Below are positions 34,150 to 41,953 of a stretch of 64,000 bases of DNA, in pieces. A program made the translations under genes and the position numbers. Location of the stretch: assembly GCF_009856605.1 (NCBI RefSeq), contig NZ_CP047242.1, positions 3,602,001-3,666,000 on the forward strand, written 5' to 3'. A model generated the notes under the pieces. That model saw only the letters and a program-made list of their open reading frames with translations. It ran no database searches and had not been told where the DNA came from. Position 1 is the first letter of the stretch, and every line of letters begins with the position of its first letter. This DNA is from Trichormus variabilis 0441. GTDB lineage: Bacteria > Cyanobacteriota > Cyanobacteriia > Cyanobacteriales > Nostocaceae.

Positions 34150-34473
34150 ACAACAGCAAGTATCTTCATTTCGGAAAGCGTATGGTTTAATTTTTCCCAA
34201 ACCTCTTGACGCTGCCATTTGCGGTAGTAGTTGTATACCGTTGAACTTGGTGGAAAGTCTCCTGGCAGCTATTCCGCTCACATCCAGTCTTCAAATGATA
34301 ATAAATGGCATAGCATTGCATATTTCACGCATATCTGTTGTGTATGAATGCCCACCAGGTTTATTTGGTGGAATCAACTTAGCCAGGATTTCCCACGACC
34401 TATCAGTTAAGTCTGTGGGATAAGCTTTCGTACCATGAGCAACTATGTAGATAAACTGTGTGAAGTATCTCAT
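34150..34473 (-). pseudogene. IS5-family transposase relic
   Basis: On the minus strand, KAYPTDLTDRSWEILAKLIPP and PGGHSYTTDMREICNAMPFIII are followed in a shifted frame by TFPPSSTVYNYYRKWQRQEVWEKLN. These match the N-terminal third of IS5-type (DUF4096) transposases. The catalytic core is absent and the frame is broken, so the element is dead. It marks the left boundary of the segment with the P-type ATPases. Confidence 0.75.
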
Positions 34474-34551
34474 TCCTTACATAGCTCCTCTCTCTTCGCT
34501 TTTAGATTTACTTTAATGAATAGCCTCTTAGTAGGGTAAAGTCTTGATCAG

Positions 34552-37296
34552 ATGAGCAATTGGTATCAACTTGATGTCGCCGAAGTGCTGCACAGGCTGG
34601 GTAGTGAAGCTTCCTGGGGGTTGAGTACGCCAGAAGCTAGTCATCGTTTAGAAAAATATGGTTTCAATGAATTGATTGAGCCAGGACTGAAACAATCTTG
34701 GCAAATTCTTTGGGAACAACTCAGCGAAACACTGGTAATTATTTTGATTGCGGCTGCGGTGATTTCGGCTCTTTTGGGTGACTATAAGGATGGCTTAGGC
34801 ATTATTGCCATTATTTTGCTGATTACTTTTTTAGGTTTTAGCCAAGAATACAGAGCGCAAAAAGCGATCGCCAATCTCAAACAGCTTTCAGCACCAAATG
34901 TCAAAGTCCGCCGTGATGGGCGTGTACAGGAAATCTCCGCCCGTCGTCTTGTACCAGGGGATATTGTGCTAATAGAAGCAGAGGATATTGTCCCAGCCGA
35001 CTGCCGACTACTTTCTATTTCCGGTTTGCGGACTCAAGAAGCTGCTCTGACAGGAGCAGCCGAACCAGTAGATAAAAATATCCAGAGATTGACAAACTCA
35101 GAGGTAATGCTGGGCGATCGCCACAATATGGTTTATATGCAGACCATTGTTACCTACGGTCGGGGTGAGGCGGTAGTTACTGAAACGGGTATGCAGACTG
35201 AGTTGGGACACATTACCAACATGATTCAAACAGTAGAACCAGAACTAACTCCTTTACAAAAACGTCTGGATGTGCTGGGAAGGTGGTTAGCGATCGCCTC
35301 TTTCGCTTTGGTAGGAATCATCTTGGCTTTGGGATTGTTACGGGGTGAAGAGATCAAGTTAATGTTTCTTACCGCCATCACCTTAGTAGTTGCGGCTTTA
35401 CCGGAAGGATTACCCGCAGTGGTCAGCATTGCCTTGGCATTGGGAGCGCAACAGATGCTCAAACGCCGGGCGTTGATTCGCAATCTACCCGCCGTAGAGA
35501 CGCTAGGATCTGTGACTACCATTTGCTCTGGCAAAACAGGTACTCTGACTGAGAACCGCATGGTAGTGACTGTTTTAGATGTAGCAGGTCGTCGCTTAGA
35601 TTTAGCTGCCCATATGCGTTGGGCATCACCTGTTGTAGATCCTAGTCAAGCCAGCCCATTCTTACTCAGTCAACCACCTGCCCTAGCTTTATTATTAGCT
35701 GGTGCTACTCTGTGCAATAACGCCAGATTAGAGCCAGACTGGGAAGAACCGCGTTACTTTCGTGCCGTCGGCGACCCCATAGAGAATGCTTTAGTGATGG
35801 CTGCTGCACACCAGGGACTCTGGAAAGGTGAACTAGAACAGACCATGCCCCGTGTAGGTGAACTGTTATCTGACTTTGAGCGTCAGCGCATGACCACAAT
35901 CCATCAATTGCCGACGGCGTTAGCGGAAATTTCCTGTGCATTGGAGACAGTTTGGCATTGGCATAGGGAGATCGGGGAAACTGCTCCTTATATTGCTTTC
36001 ACCAAAGGCCGAATCAAGAGTCTGCTGGATGTTTCTAGCCAAGTTTGGGTGGATGGATGTGCTGAAGAACTCAATGAAGTTCGACGCGAACAGATTTTAA
36101 CTGCTTATCACCAGCTGACACAAAATGGTTTACGGGTTTTGGGATTATCTTTTCGGTTGTGGCAATCACTTGATATTGCTGAGATAGAACAGGACTTGAT
36201 ATTTATTGGTTTGGTGGGGATGAATGATCCAGCAAGACCAGAAGTTAGGGATGCCGTACTACTTTGCAAGCAGGCTGGTATCCGTCCGGTAATGATTACG
36301 GGAGATCACCCCCTGACAGCTCAATATATTGCTCAAGAGGTGGGGATTGCTACAGGCGATTTTATTCTCACCAGTAATGATCTCTCCCACCTATCCCCAG
36401 AGGCGTTGGGAAATCTCGTCGAAGAAGTATCAGTTTACGCCAGGATTTCCCCAGAACATAAGTTTAATATTGTGCAGTTTCTCCAAAGACGGCGGCATAT
36501 CGTCGCCATGACTGGCGATGGAGCTAACGATGCACCTGCTTTGAAAAAAGCTGATATTGGCATAGCAATGGGCATTAACGGTACTGATGTCGCCAGAGAA
36601 GCAGCCGATATGGTGTTGCTAGACGACAACTTCGCCACCATCGTTGCTGCTGTCAAAGAAGGGCGAATAATTTACGACAATATCCGCAAGTTTATTAAGT
36701 ACATCTTAAGTAGCAATGTTGGCGAACTCTGCGTGATGCTCCTAGCTCCTTTTTTGGGAATGCCACTACCATTGTTACCACTCCAAATTCTCTGGATCAA
36801 TATAACTACCGACGGTTTACCAGCCCTAGCTTTAGGCGTAGAACCTGCGGAAAGAGACACCATGAATCGCCCTCCTCATCCCCCCCATGAAAATATTTTT
36901 GGACGAGGCATGGGCAGAGATATTATCTGGATAGGTTTACTAATGTCTTTTGTCTCCCTAGTCACAGGATATTTGTATTGGCGTAGTAGCAATCCAGGCT
37001 GGCAAACAATTTTGTTTACTACTGTCACCCTATCTCAGATGGGTAACGCCTTGGCCATTCGCTCAGAACGAGACTCTCTTTGGCAAATTGGGTTGCTATC
37101 CAACAAGCCAATTTTGGCAGCAGTAATCCTCACGCTGGTTTTGCAACTGGCTGTCATATATCTCCCTGTTTTACAGAACATTTTTGCAACAGTAGCCCTA
37201 TCACCATTAGATTTGGGTGTTAGTTTGATTCTAAGTACCCTGGTCTTCTGGGGTGTGGAACTGAAAAAATGGCTGATGCGCCGCAGGCATTTTTAA
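34552..37296 (+). CDS. P-type cation ATPase homologue lacking catalytic residues (pseudo-pump)
   Basis: This 914-residue P2-type (SERCA/PMR1-like) ATPase has no stop or frameshift. Cation-site motifs in the membrane are intact: [18 protein letters not shown] (M4) and [17 protein letters not shown] (M6). The hinge motifs [11 protein letters not shown] and [22 protein letters not shown] are also intact. However, the phosphorylated Asp is Gly327 ([10 protein letters not shown], codon GGC). The actuator TGES is T167-G168-A169-A170, and the nucleotide-site KGAP is KGRI. It cannot run the normal phospho-cycle. A regulatory or binding role, or very recent inactivation, is possible. It is the first gene of a four-gene plus-strand cluster. 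Confidence 0.88.
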
Positions 37297-37472
37297 ACAA
37301 CCATCATAGCGGTTTGCAGTTGGGTAAAATATAGCCTATTTCTAGGGGCGTACAGATGTTCGCCTCTTTATGAATTCTATTCACCAGGATCTAATCCAAA
37401 AGACACATAACTCATTTATGCCCAAAGCCAGTGTATTTTCATCTCTGATTATAAAAAGATTGAAAGTGAGAT

Positions 37473-38342
37473 ATGACAATTTTCACAAAAAACTCAGTTC
37501 CTCTTAGAGCAAGAGTAGAAACTATGTCAGCCTTTTCTTTGCCATCTGTAAATCCTTCTAGAGCAGATAGCGAAGTTATTTTACATGCAAAGGTAGAGGC
37601 ATTTTATTATGATAGATTTTTGGCCTTACGTAATGTTTACCTTCCTATCTACAAAAACCTAATTACAACTTTAATTGGACCTTCTGGCTGTGGTAAAAGC
37701 ACATTACTCCGGTGTTTTAATCGTCTCAATGATCTTATTCCCCAAACTCGCTTACAAGGGCAAATTATTTTTAAAGGACGCAATATTTATCATCCTCTAG
37801 AAGATGCCGTAGTTCTACGCCGCAACATTGGGATGGTCTTCCAAAAGCCAAATCCCTTTCCAAAATCTATCTATAATAATGTTGCCTTTGGTCTCCGCAT
37901 TCAGGGATATCGAGGAGATATAGATGAAATCGTTGAGCATTCATTACGTCAGGCTATCCTTTGGGATGAGGTCAAGAATAAACTTAAAGAAAATGCTCTA
38001 TCTCTTTCTGGTGGTCAGCAACAAAGGTTGTGTATCGCGCGAATGCTGGCTGTACAACCAGAGATAATTCTTATGGATGAACCTTGCTCTGCTCTTGATC
38101 CAACATCAACCAAGCAAATTGAAGCATTAATAAAAGAAATTAAGCAACAACATACTATTGTGATTGTTACCCATAATATGCAACAGGCTTCACGAATCTC
38201 TGATATGACTGCATTTTTCAATACTGAAATGATAGAAGGAAGCCGTACTGGTGAATTAGTCGAATATGATCACACACCTGTAATTTTTCAAAATCCAACA
38301 AGAGAAATTACTCGGCAATATGTGAATGGTTATTTCGGTTGA
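37473..38342 (+). CDS. pstB: PstB-like phosphate ABC transporter ATPase, orphan
   Basis: This 289-residue ABC ATPase has Walker [11 protein letters not shown], signature LSGGQQQRL and Walker [43 protein letters not shown] is diagnostic for PstB, and [18 protein letters not shown] continues the family pattern. A 35-residue N-terminal extension precedes the core (possible later start at MSAFSLPSV). PstB normally energises PstA/PstC, but no pstS, pstC or pstA gene is nearby. It lies 176 bp after the pseudo-pump and 216 bp before the DUF5132 gene, and may work with permeases encoded elsewhere. Confidence 0.87.
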
Positions 38343-38558
38343 ATTTTAAATATTTTTCAATGGTATAATTTCATCTATTTATGGGTAGATTATTCTAATT
38401 TTTTATTGGAATGATTCGATAAATAAGCTGCATCATTTTACAGGTAAATCAGCAAAACAATTAATGAAATAAGAGTTTTTACAAAAAAATACTATGAGGA
38501 AATTATCTATTTTTTATTGATACAATAAAGGTGTAAACATTCAGGAGACAATGATGTT

Positions 38559-38846
38559 ATGTCACCTAAAATTTTACCAGATGTTGAAAATTTAGTAGAA
38601 GACCTTGGCGTTCCGGGTATTGCCGCGATAGTGCTTCTGCCAGTTATCGTTCCAGTAGTAACGGGTGTTGGTAAACCAATAGCTAAAACAGCCATAAAAG
38701 GCGGAATTCTCCTCTATGAAAAGGGTAAAGGAGTAATTGCCGAAGTTGGTGAAACTTTTGAGGATACTATGGCTGAAGCCAAGGCTGAACTCGCTGAACA
38801 ACAATCTGAAGCTCACATGGAGACAATTGAACCATCTACTAAATAA
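38559..38846 (+). CDS. DUF5132 small membrane-associated protein
   Basis: The 95-residue protein has a hydrophobic segment (GIAAIVLLPVIVPVVTGVG, about residues 19-37). An amphipathic stretch (KPIAKTAIKGGILLYEKGKG) and a very acidic tail rich in A and E follow. This matches DUF5132, in which a glycine-rich helix is followed by KxLIKGGxxLYEKG. Function is unknown. An AGGAG at 38543-38547 lies 11 bases before the ATG, and an overlapping 14-codon frame begins at ATG 38551. The gene sits between two ATPase genes, which suggests it may assist a transporter. Confidence 0.75.
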   Translation: MSPKILPDVENLVEDLGVPGIAAIVLLPVIVPVVTGVGKPIAKTAIKGGILLYEKGKGVIAEVGETFEDTMAEAKAELAEQQSEAHMETIEPSTK

Positions 38847-38986
38847 GTACACTATCAACTCTAAGGAAATCTATGCTAGTGGTTGAATGTTGTAGTGTAC
38901 AGGTATAAAAATGCAATTTTTTTTGCAAGATGGGTGAAATATCCATCTTTTTTAGTATTTAAAATTTTTTAAAGTATCTAGAGTAT

Positions 38987-41725
38987 ATGAGACACAATTG
39001 GCTCAATTATGGTGATTTTCAAATATTGCTGAGACGGGTGTTACATAGAAATAAAAAGCCAAAAGTAGAATCTGATATTTCTACAAAATTATCAGCAAAA
39101 CTTCTTGATATTTCTACAAAAGATTTAGAAATATTACTGCGATCGCTCAATACATCCATTGAAGGTTTAAGTGAAATTGAATCGGAAATTCATTTAGAAA
39201 AATACGGATTAAATGAAATTGCCCGTGAGAGACCACCAAAATGGTATATTCAGATATTTAAAACTTTTCAAAATCCTTTAGTTATTCTCTTGATATCTTT
39301 GGCAATCGTCTCCTTGATGACAGGTGATATCAAAGCCGCCGTGATTATTTTCATCATGGTTGTCTTTAGTGTGTTGCTACGTTTTTCTCAAGAGTTTCGT
39401 TCTAGTCTAGCCGCCGAAAAACTCCGAGAAATGGTCAAAACAACTGCAACTGTTAGCCGCAAAGATCAGCGTCAAGATATTCCCCCAGAAATGCTTCAAG
39501 AATATGGTATTACTCTCCATCCCCATGAAGCAGAAAGAAAAGAAATTTCCATCAAGTTTTTAGTCCCAGGAGATATTATTTACCTCTCAGCCGGAGATAT
39601 GATTCCCGCAGATGTGAGATTAATTACTGCTAAAGATTTATTTATCAGTCAGGGTGCGTTAACAGGAGAATCTCTACCCGTAGAAAAACATCCTACTTTA
39701 CCCGCAGGTCAAACCCAAAGCGAAAACCCACTAGAATTAGTGAACATTTGTTTTATGGGTACTAACATTGTTAGCGGTACAGGTACGGCAGTAGTGGTAC
39801 AAACTGGTAGCAATACTTACTTAGGTGCATTAGCTCAAACTCTGGTCGGTCAGAAAACACTCTCTAGTTTTGACAAAGGAGTAAATGGCATTAGCTTCTT
39901 GCTATTGCGGTTTATGCTGGTCATTGCACCTTTAGTATTTTTCATCAATGGCTTAATTAAAGGTAATTGGACAGAGGCTTTCTTTTTTGCGTTATCTGTA
40001 GCTGTAGGGTTAACGCCAGAGATGCTACCGATGATTGTAACGGCTAATTTGGGTAGAGGTGCGATCGCTATGTCTGAGAAAAAAGTGATCGTCAAAAATA
40101 TCGACTCCATCCAAAGCCTTGGTGCAATGGATATTCTTTGTACCGATAAAACAGGTACTCTCACCCAAGATAAAATTATTTTGGAAATGCACCTGGATGT
40201 TTATGGTGAAGAAAATGACGAAGTTTTAGAGTATGCCTATCTCAATAGCTTTTATCAAACAGGGTTAAAAAACTTACTAGATGTAGCTGTACTCGAACAC
40301 ATCGAGTTACACGAATCTCTGAAAGTTGAAAAAGATTTCCGCAAAATTGATGAAATTCCTTTTGATTTTATCCGCCGTCGGATGTCGGTAGTAGTAGAAG
40401 AAACTCATCACAAGCATATATTAATTTGCAAAGGCGCAGTCGAAGAAATTCTGCAAGTTTGTACCCAAGTCCAAGGTAATGAACAGATTGTACCGATGGA
40501 TGAATCAGCCCACACCCAAACGCTGCAATTAGACAAGGATTTAAATGAAGATGGTTTACGGGTGATTGCTGTTGCTTATAAAGAACTACCACCCGACCAA
40601 CTCACATACTCAGTTGTCGATGAGTCTAATCTGATTCTACTAGGGTTCATTGCTTTTCTCGACCCTCCTAAAGAATCAGCAGCCCAAGCAATTAACGCCC
40701 TGAATCGCAATGGCATCCAAGTAAAAATCTTAACAGGTGATAATGAAATTATTACTCGCAAAACCTGTAAAGATGTGGGTTTATACGTTCACCACACACT
40801 CTTGGGTAACGAAGTTGAAAAATTATCTGATGAGGAATTAGCAGAAATAGCAGTCACAACAACTATTTTTGCCAAACTATCTCCCCTACAAAAAGCTAGA
40901 ATCATTCAAGTTTTACGCCGTAAAAATCACATAGTCGGCTTTTTGGGGGATGGAATTAATGATGCAGCAGCTTTACGAGAAGCTGATGTTGGTATCTCTG
41001 TGGACACAGCCGTAGATATTGCCAAAGAGTCAGCAGATATTATCCTGTTAGAAAAAAGCTTGTTGGTACTGGAAGCAGGTGTAAATGAAGGGCGCAAGAC
41101 CTTCGGCAATATTGTTAAATATATCAAAATGGGTACAAGTTCCAACTTTGGCAATATGTTCAGTATGTTGGGAGCAAGTGCCTTGCTACCATTTTTACCA
41201 ATGAATCCAGTACAAATACTTTTAAATAATCTACTCTACGATTTTTCCCAAACTGGCATTCCCTTCGATCATGTAGATCCAGAATACCTAACTAAACCGC
41301 GTAAATGGCAGATTAATGATATCCAGAAGTTTATGCTCTACATCGGCCCCATGAGTTCGATTTTTGACTATGGGACATTTGCTTTAATGTGGTTTGTCTT
41401 TGGTGCTAACTCGGTAGAAAAACAAGCACTATTTCAAACAGGTTGGTTTGTCGAAAGTTTATTAACCCAAACCCTCATTGTTCACATTATCCGTACTGCG
41501 AAAATTCCCCTCATTCAAAGTACAGCAGCGTTGCCTACGCTACTAGTGACCGTGACAATTATGACACTGGGAATTTATATTCCTTTCTCTCCGATTGCAT
41601 CCGGTTTAGGATTTGTGCCTTTACCCGCCAGCTATTTTCTCTGGTTAGGGTTGATTTTATCTAGTTACTGTGTATTGACACAGTTAGTAAAAACCTGGTT
41701 TGTGAAAAAATACGGCTACAACTAA
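38987..41725 (+). CDS. mgtA: Magnesium-translocating P-type ATPase (MgtA, P3B)
   Basis: This 912-residue pump has all catalytic motifs: TGES (GALTGESLPVEK), the phosphorylation loop DILCTDKTGTLTQDK, KILTGDNEI and FLGDGINDAAALREADVGIS. The N-terminal cytosolic part with LNEIARERPPKWYIQIFKTFQNPLVILL and the membrane motif VGLTPEMLPMIVTANL are typical of the MgtA/MgtB group, which imports Mg2+. The end FPMNPVQILLNNLLYDFSQ-like region (FLPMNPVQILLNNLLYDFSQ) is also characteristic. Unlike enteric mgtA, I see no recognisable leader riboswitch in the 140-bp upstream gap. It closes the four-gene cluster. Confidence 0.93.
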   Translation: MRHNWLNYGDFQILLRRVLHRNKKPKVESDISTKLSAKLLDISTKDLEILLRSLNTSIEGLSEIESEIHLEKYGLNEIARERPPKWYIQIFKTFQNPLVILLISLAIVSLMTGDIKAAVIIFIMVVFSVLLRFSQEFRSSLAAEKLREMVKTTATVSRKDQRQDIPPEMLQEYGITLHPHEAERKEISIKFLVPGDIIYLSAGDMIPADVRLITAKDLFISQGALTGESLPVEKHPTLPAGQTQSENPLELVNICFMGTNIVSGTGTAVVVQTGSNTYLGALAQTLVGQKTLSSFDKGVNGISFLLLRFMLVIAPLVFFINGLIKGNWTEAFFFALSVAVGLTPEMLPMIVTANLGRGAIAMSEKKVIVKNIDSIQSLGAMDILCTDKTGTLTQDKIILEMHLDVYGEENDEVLEYAYLNSFYQTGLKNLLDVAVLEHIELHESLKVEKDFRKIDEIPFDFIRRRMSVVVEETHHKHILICKGAVEEILQVCTQVQGNEQIVPMDESAHTQTLQLDKDLNEDGLRVIAVAYKELPPDQLTYSVVDESNLILLGFIAFLDPPKESAAQAINALNRNGIQVKILTGDNEIITRKTCKDVGLYVHHTLLGNEVEKLSDEELAEIAVTTTIFAKLSPLQKARIIQVLRRKNHIVGFLGDGINDAAALREADVGISVDTAVDIAKESADIILLEKSLLVLEAGVNEGRKTFGNIVKYIKMGTSSNFGNMFSMLGASALLPFLPMNPVQILLNNLLYDFSQTGIPFDHVDPEYLTKPRKWQINDIQKFMLYIGPMSSIFDYGTFALMWFVFGANSVEKQALFQTGWFVESLLTQTLIVHIIRTAKIPLIQSTAALPTLLVTVTIMTLGIYIPFSPIASGLGFVPLPASYFLWLGLILSSYCVLTQLVKTWFVKKYGYN

Positions 41726-41770
41726 ACAACACCTCCAGCAACCGCCTTGAGTGGGGTCAGGATTCCACGC

Positions 41771-41854
41771 TCAGAGGTTTGACATTCCATATTTCTGGCA
41801 ATATTCAAGAATCGTCCGATCTGAGGAAAATTTGCCAATTCGAGCTATATTCAT
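41771..41854 (-). pseudogene. 3' terminal fragment of a glycogen phosphorylase gene
   Basis: From 41854 down to the stop at 41773-41771 the minus strand reads MNIARIGKFSSDRTILEYCQ and then KYGMSNL. This closely matches the C-terminal end of glycogen/starch phosphorylases (IARxGKFSSDRTIxEYxxxIW). The upstream 800 codons are missing. The fragment lies at the right edge of the ATPase segment, next to sigB2, and probably arrived or was left behind during the rearrangement. Confidence 0.7.
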
Positions 41855-41953
41855 CAGTAAGATTGGCAATGTGCTTCAAGCCGGGATCGTTTCACAGAGA
41901 AGTAAACCCCTAAAAAAATCGCCCCCTGAATGAGTTCAGGAGGCGCGGAGATT

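Follow-up and report, generated by a model that had tools for sequence, protein, structure and literature searches.

The window analysed here, a 64,000-nucleotide stretch of the Trichormus variabilis 0441 genome (contig NZ_CP047242.1, positions 3,602,001 to 3,666,000), encodes a full-length P2A-type ATPase in which glycine stands in place of the phosphorylatable aspartate, hereafter termed the pseudo-pump. Comparison with its homologues indicates a single origin, purifying selection, an invariant cation site in membrane segments M4-M6, a largely kept nucleotide pocket, and relaxed phosphorylation (P) and actuator (A) domains. We consider it rather likely that the protein belongs to an old P2A clade, known here from cyanobacteria only, in which Asp changed to Gly once and which has been kept as a cation- and nucleotide-binding pseudo-pump with a sensing, regulatory or scaffolding role; instead of pumping ions, the protein probably senses or regulates them. 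The gene and its diagnostic codons are listed below, with counts referring to the 38 Gly-bearing homologues (the Gly clade).

34552..37296, plus strand: pseudo-pump gene, a non-phosphorylatable P2A-type ATPase (SERCA/SPCA-like) of 914 aa, assigned from frame, alignment, Pfam and predicted structure
35056..35061, plus strand: codons 169-170 (Ala-Ala), position of the Glu-Ser in TGES
35404..35406, plus strand: codon 285, Glu of PEGLP in M4, a retained cation-site residue (38/38)
35530..35532, plus strand: codon 327, GGC (Gly), position of the phosphorylated Asp in DKTGT
36715..36813, plus strand: codons 722-754 (M5-M6), with the retained cation-site residues N722, E725, N750, T753 and D754 (each 38/38)

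The open reading frame at 34552-37296 encodes 914 residues followed by a stop codon and is uninterrupted by internal stops. At the catalytic positions the protein reads LTG-A169-A170-EP (TGES), ICS-G327-KTGTLT (DKTGT) and FTKGRI (KGAP), and it carries the membrane motifs ALPEGLPA (M4) and NITTDGLPA (M6), together with a further 11-residue motif. The intact frame, PEGLP, TDGLPA, Gly327 (GGC) and TGAA had all been described in a sequence-only reading of this DNA and are found as described. That reading had also proposed a loss at several catalytic sites, which holds for Gly327 and TGAA; the KGAP alteration, the third supposed loss, is weak evidence on its own, as the lysine of this motif is retained in the Gly clade (K in 34/38, R in 4/38) and the next residue alone is free. 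Among the 18 P-type ATPases in the same genome, 17 have DKTGT and the pseudo-pump solely has GKTGT, a change that is present also in independently sequenced relatives.

Profile searches placed the protein within the P-type ATPase superfamily (TIGR01494, 304.2 bits, cut-off 62.3), with PF00122, PF00689, PF00690 and PF00702 all above their cut-offs. Two narrower models, TIGR01522 (684.9 bits, cut-off 798.3) and TIGR01116 (585.0 bits, cut-off 703.4), stay below threshold, as they also do for the active sister protein P0032 (715.3 and 634.6 bits). An AlphaFold2 model built from 110 sequences has SPCA1 and LMCA1 in its five best rows, with alignments of 804-850 residues; an earlier model from 32 close sequences had a poor P domain (predicted TM score 0.46). 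As far as sequence and prediction go, the scaffold is a known one, with a P2A fold and the cation-site motifs PEGLP, NxxE and NxxTD, but the defining phosphorylatable Asp is gone.

The homologue search scored up to 7999 candidates, and of the best 120 matches listed, the window protein among them, 38 bear Gly. Alignment of 135 homologous clusters revealed Gly at the position of the DKTGT Asp in 38 (window protein included), Asp in 97 and any other residue in none; the 38 clusters represent 150 member sequences by the sum of cluster sizes, with residues read in the cluster rows. A profile built from 32 Gly proteins retrieved no further Gly protein among its best 120 matches and ranked the 38 on top, except that the active P0032 ties with the lowest of them. 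Trees were computed after removing the trait columns. In FastTree the Gly rows (41, three of them taken from loci, among 90) form a single clade with a support of 0.999, and in IQ-TREE, with 38 Gly and 20 of the 97 Asp proteins, the clade has an ultrafast bootstrap of 100 and a Shimodaira-Hasegawa-like approximate likelihood ratio support of 99, and appears in 200/200 bootstrap trees. The question raised by the sequence-only reading, whether SGKTGT proteins form a clade, is thus answered in the affirmative. The sister group consists of eight DKTGT/TGES proteins, three of which are named Xenococcaceae or Pleurocapsa, and all 12 Gly members whose records name an organism are cyanobacteria.

On the tree, a single change explains Asp to Gly, whereas the loss of the TGES Glu requires at least three. 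A single loss of this Glu was rejected by forcing the Glu-less rows, a group named after viewing the first tree, into one clade (approximately unbiased test, p = 0.00015), and four of the 38 Gly proteins (P0019, P0022, P0024 and P0027) retain the Glu. Because Asp was replaced once, Glu was lost at least three times and 4/38 proteins still carry it, the trees indicate that phosphorylation was lost first and that the dephosphorylation residue drifted away later. The Gly state is old, inherited and selectively maintained, being neither an error nor a recent decay.

The loci compared below come from pattern scans of genomes. A scan of a phylum sample, which gave 2 of 386 genomes, many of them small, was of little use, and a scan of an order sample gave 7 of 388. 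A looser pattern found matches in 25 of 217 genomes of the family, of which 10 were discarded after translation (nine read CPGK.GTLT and one CWGKIGTFT, and none of their frames, 38-92 aa long, contains PEGLP) and 15 remained; together with G510, G586, G631 and G639 from the order scan, these make up the set of 19 genomes, in which G000 is the genome of the window.

Over 11 pairs of pseudo-pump genes, the ratio of nonsynonymous to synonymous substitution rates (dN/dS, Nei-Gojobori) ranges from 0.082 to 0.170, where the top value (L096/L097) may include untranslated upstream codons; the window gene against that of Amazonocrinis CENA67 gives 0.094. In one genus with three species that have both genes, the values are 0.086, 0.105 and 0.091 for the pseudo-pump and 0.108, 0.094 and 0.069 for a DKTGT paralogue sitting 2.3-2.7 kb from it, so that selection on the two is comparable in the same genomes. 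The Gly codon at the 19 loci is GGC in eight, GGT in eight and GGG in three; since three Gly codons are in use, the residue is held at the protein level. The earlier proposal that catalysis was lost under selection with an unbroken frame is therefore borne out by the single clade, the low dN/dS and the invariant ion site.

Constraint within the protein is unevenly distributed. The six cation-site residues E285, N722, E725, N750, T753 and D754 are each present in 38/38 members. At the nucleotide and Mg site, D408, D559, R562, D585, K637, N659 and D660 are fully retained (38/38), and K485 (34/38), R528 (37/38), D656 (37/38) and T329 (36/38) nearly so; we take these residues to correspond to their counterparts in SERCA numbering. 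The freed positions are 169 (Glu in 4/38), 170 (Ser in 18/38) and 487 (Ala in 3/38), compared to a TGES Glu in 97/97 Asp relatives. The mean pairwise identity is 0.673 in the Gly set and 0.683 in the Asp set. Domain entropy was expressed relative to the whole protein, with borders set from what we take to be the P2A topology, and was compared with the range over 200 random draws of 38 active proteins, which disregard taxonomy and tree shape, making the contrasts descriptive. M5-M6 (0.315 versus 0.485-0.608) is little over half as variable as in the active draws. The nucleotide-binding (N) domain (1.397 versus 1.549-1.674), M7-M10 (0.944 versus 1.012-1.127) and the N-terminus (1.392 versus 1.415-1.619) are also tighter, M1-M2 lies within the range of the draws, and P1 (0.388 versus 0.169-0.262), P2 (0.855 versus 0.594-0.662) and the A domain (1.145 versus 0.853-0.937) are looser. 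On the whole, this pattern is as expected for binding in the membrane plus contact through the headpiece, not for turnover.

In the window, the pseudo-pump gene is followed on the same strand by pstB, a DUF5132 gene and mgtA, which together form a putative mobile block with the following features.

34178..41902: block of 7.7 kb (pump, orphan pstB, DUF5132, mgtA) missing in congeners, with an empty site in L137 and L138, and nearly in L139
34180..34531, minus strand: remnant of an IS4/5-family transposase element at the left edge of the block, with dispersed copies
37473..38342, plus strand: orphan PstB-type ATP-binding cassette ATPase, 289 aa (TIGR00972, 360.8 bits, cut-off 343.2)
38559..38846, plus strand: DUF5132 (PF17195) small protein, 95 aa, with one hydrophobic stretch
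38987..41725, plus strand: MgtA-like P3B ATPase, 912 aa, DKTGT and TGES intact (TIGR01524, 1243.6 bits, cut-off 610.75)

No match to the pseudo-pump in 12 congeners exceeds 47%. Flank searches in 11 congeners found the right flank in 11/11, each match beginning behind mgtA. The match to the G003 flanks (92 and 96% identity) stops at 34177 and picks up again at 41903, with 104 bases separating the two parts; for G011 the corresponding positions are 34177 and 41913, with 246 bases, and G002 is nearly so. Other parts of the genome hold dispersed copies that are 81-83% similar to the left edge (34180-34531), and one of these copies encodes a piece of an IS4/5 transposase; the pseudo-pump of Amazonocrinis CENA67 also adjoins a transposase (DDE_3). 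No inverted repeats marking transposon ends were found around the block. The right edge (41740-41902), absent from the congeners, contains a 60-aa frame that matches no Pfam family at E values up to 1, and may carry the remnant of another mobile element. The patchy distribution would be explained if the lineage of the window had acquired the block by transfer, the pseudo-pump arriving within an ion-homeostasis cassette; loss in the congeners is the alternative.

DUF5132 is the most recurrent neighbour of the pseudo-pump, lying near it in 10 of the 19 genomes (G000, G016, G020, G704, G715, G716, G759, G797, G799 and G800). The DUF5132 proteins have about 95 residues, and GxPG starts the hydrophobic stretch in nine of ten aligned. 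There are 59 DUF5132 matches in 20 genomes (the 19 with a pseudo-pump plus G083), compared to none in 14 named control genomes. Among the 49 matches away from the pseudo-pump, the flanks of 33 were examined, and a DKTGT ATPase of 743-798 aa lies within 5 kb in 15 and none was recognised in 18; of the remaining 16, at least nine are near a P-type ATPase among the matches listed. At least 24/49 are thus within 5 kb of another P-type ATPase or, with the ten by the pseudo-pump, at least 34/59. About 2-3% of the chromosome of the window lies within 5 kb of a P-type ATPase; as the genomes are related and the hits non-independent, no p-value is attached. DUF5132 genes are thus frequent neighbours of P-type ATPase genes in cyanobacteria (window; L104, L106-L109, L112-L116, L120, L122, L125, L131 and L136), and their place is often immediately behind the gene of a 743-798-aa DKTGT ATPase.

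The pstB of the window is an orphan, with pstS, pstC and pstA not beside it, and its product is one of five PstB-level matches in the genome. Close copies adjoin the pseudo-pump in L095 (G704) and L099 (G759); the three PstB proteins are 72-74% alike, against 59-62% when they are compared with the PstB from the complete pstSCAB operon of G510. G759 carries the same four genes together (69, 74, 70-72 and 79% identical) with mgtA reversed, and its pseudo-pump, P0022, is named Nostoc, still has TGES and belongs to a distant branch. In 6/19 genomes (G000, G759, G704, G510, G586 and G044), the 7 kb around the pseudo-pump include phosphate-transport or phosphatase genes (pstB, pstS type, pstSCAB or phoD). 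Tandem repeats resembling the Pho-box consensus were sought at 17 loci from -500 bases to 30 bases inside the gene, and exceeded shuffled sequences only in L070 (one mismatch, 0/100 shuffles). This repeat reads towards a divergent pstS, and we make no claim of phosphate control of the pseudo-pump.

Other neighbours vary. At L061, L101 and L102, all from one genus, a DKTGT P2A pump is encoded 2.3-2.7 kb away, and FTR1, ferritin-like and multicopper-oxidase genes are also near the pseudo-pump. A DUF1345 gene is directly upstream in two genera (G019 and G029; L065 5434-6108 and L066 11739-12413), and in G510 (L069 4492-13499) a TrkA-domain gene ends 10 bases before the pseudo-pump, with the full pstSCAB operon after.

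In P-type pumps, the Asp is required for the phosphoenzyme E1P to form, and hydrolysis of E2P depends on the TGES Glu. Without the Asp, established P-type chemistry implies that no aspartyl-phosphate would form and that the E1P/E2P cycle would be gone; therefore the TGES Glu, the remover of that phosphate, would be free to vary. We propose that the membrane part of the pseudo-pump would still bind a divalent cation (probably Ca2+) and its headpiece Mg-ATP, and that the protein would shift among ion-free, ion-bound and ATP-bound E1-like forms, following cation and ATP levels. By passing on this change in shape it might serve as a sensor, a regulator or a scaffold within assemblies in the membrane, to which the DUF5132 protein and, at certain loci, also active P-type ATPases may belong.

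Several observations weigh against this proposal. M3-M4, which is part of the ion path, is slightly looser than the active draws (0.678 versus 0.561-0.664) and misfits a simple story of the whole path being held tighter, although the M4 cation-site Glu is still invariant. The active comparison set covers more phyla than the Gly clade, so the domain contrasts are relative. The headpiece is not uniformly kept (T329 in 36/38, G584 in 35/38): P0023 reads SGKKGT in the DKTGT region, and P0028 is further changed there (CCGQRGTLT), with one Mg-site Asp turned to Asn. The headpiece thus seems to be eroding in one sub-branch, which would fit a role needing nucleotide less. Nine of the 19 genomes have no DUF5132 near the pseudo-pump, with four of those genes near a contig end and with varying neighbours. 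In one of the 19, G797 (L100 9006-12112), the gene is split into two frames, by decay or an assembly sequence error. Absence from all close relatives together with stops, which the earlier reading took as a sign of error or decay, was not found; yet the gene is missing in congeners and split in G797. Moreover, all binding and signalling is read here from sequence.

Alternatively, an active P-type ATPase encoded nearby (MgtA or P2A) could form a hetero-oligomer with the pseudo-pump, which would then be its non-catalytic subunit or its dominant regulator; we regard this as unlikely. A DKTGT ATPase gene or piece lies within 3 kb in 7/19 genomes (the four with mgtA, plus a DKTGT P2A in G016, G799 and G800), the solved structure of MgtA is a homodimer joined at the headpiece (PMC10925321), and the N domain is relatively tighter than in the active proteins and has gained invariant positions, W424 among them. 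Against this, 12/19 genomes have no such neighbour in the stretch examined, where several contigs are short, and the type of neighbour varies between P3B and P2A. A gene or piece of mgtA adjoins the pseudo-pump in only four genomes (G000, G759, G639 and G631). The pieces end upstream of it by 78 bases in G639, at a contig end, and by two bases in G631 (L068 8028-9314), where the mgtA match stops after about 407 residues and the pseudo-pump is intact. We therefore reject MgtA as a necessary partner, and dominant regulation of an adjacent MgtA, as suggested earlier, fails as a general role. The two genes do share a block in the window, but they are not directly adjacent, being separated by pstB and the DUF5132 gene (1.7 kb).

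Less probable still is a nucleotide-gated passive cation path, a uniporter or leak that would let ions run downhill without phosphorylation. The low variability of M5-M6 and the retention of all examined cation-site residues would fit direct work on the ion, but such constraint fits binding alone equally well, the AlphaFold2 model resembles ordinary pump states, and no sign of an open path was noticed, though none was looked for. It is very improbable that the protein is still an ATP-driven pump that relies on an unconventional nucleophile or hydrolyses ATP directly, with no phosphoenzyme: nucleotide-pocket and Mg-site residues are largely retained and dN/dS is like that of active pumps, but Gly has no side chain, the preceding Ser is nothing new as it also occurs in the CSDKTGT of active relatives, and both the TGES Glu and the position that follows KG are freed, as expected without a phosphoenzyme cycle. 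Sequencing error or a decaying pseudogene, to which one altered copy of 18 in the genome and the absence in congeners might point, is ruled out for practical purposes by the single clade of 38 Gly clusters, the intact frames and the low dN/dS, and would stand only if the entire clade were an artefact.

Compared to the P2A Ca2+-ATPases (SPCA1/PMR1, Listeria LMCA1 and SERCA), the pseudo-pump lacks the phosphorylatable Asp, its P and A domains are relaxed, and the TGES Glu is missing in 34/38 members of its clade. The nearest parallel that we found is human TMEM94 (ERMA), the status of which is reportedly disputed (PMC13322241). TMEM94 has a P-type-like architecture without TGES, and a structural study argues against a phosphorylation cycle (PMC12134183); the likeness drawn here is one of described architecture, and TMEM94 retains a candidate phosphorylation Asp, D417. 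MgtA, a P3B Mg2+ ATPase of the same block, has complete catalytic motifs and shares about 27% identity with the pseudo-pump; its homodimer (PMC10925321) exemplifies the ability of P-type ATPases to pair by way of the headpiece.

For the DUF5132 protein, the closest counterpart is mycobacterial PacL1, a protein with one membrane helix that is encoded with the P-type ATPase CtpC, and is required for stabilising it and gathering it in membrane patches (PMC9374683, PMC13043812); the PacL helix has a conserved GxxG (PMC13043812). Both are small one-helix-type proteins of families of unknown function, encoded next to P-type ATPase genes. However, PacL belongs to DUF1490 and its partners are active P1B metal exporters, whereas here the family is DUF5132 and the partner is a non-catalytic P2A protein. 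The resemblance is a likeness of kind, not a shown kinship; three DUF5132 proteins gave no DUF1490 match and only PF17195 at E up to 10, and a literature search on the name DUF5132 found no paper. A wider picture, which we put forward tentatively, would be a cyanobacterial family of cation receptors, arisen once long ago, that binds Ca2+ and ATP without turnover, recruits or tunes real pumps via DUF5132 as a counterpart of PacL, and was dispersed together with orphan PstB and MgtA in a cassette of four genes that ties Ca/Mg balance to phosphate balance.

Transceptors for metal pumps are among the topics raised in a 2023 review devoted to open questions about P-type ATPases (PMC10654040), and in its sections consulted there is no mention of an Asp-less clade. 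Our full-text literature search, with most subscription papers outside its reach, returned no description of an Asp-less P-type clade, and a search for SGKTGT in an ATPase gave one unrelated match only.

The aspartyl-phosphate defines the P-type ATPases, and the Gly clade gave it up with M5-M6 held tighter than in working pumps. Pseudokinases and other pseudoenzymes have altered the understanding of their families. The Gly clade offers a natural experiment on what a pump scaffold may do without catalysis, be it sensing, scaffolding or passive conduction, and its intermediates, with Gly in place and TGES still present, reveal the order of loss. The link to DUF5132, if confirmed, would extend small-protein partners of pumps well beyond mycobacteria.
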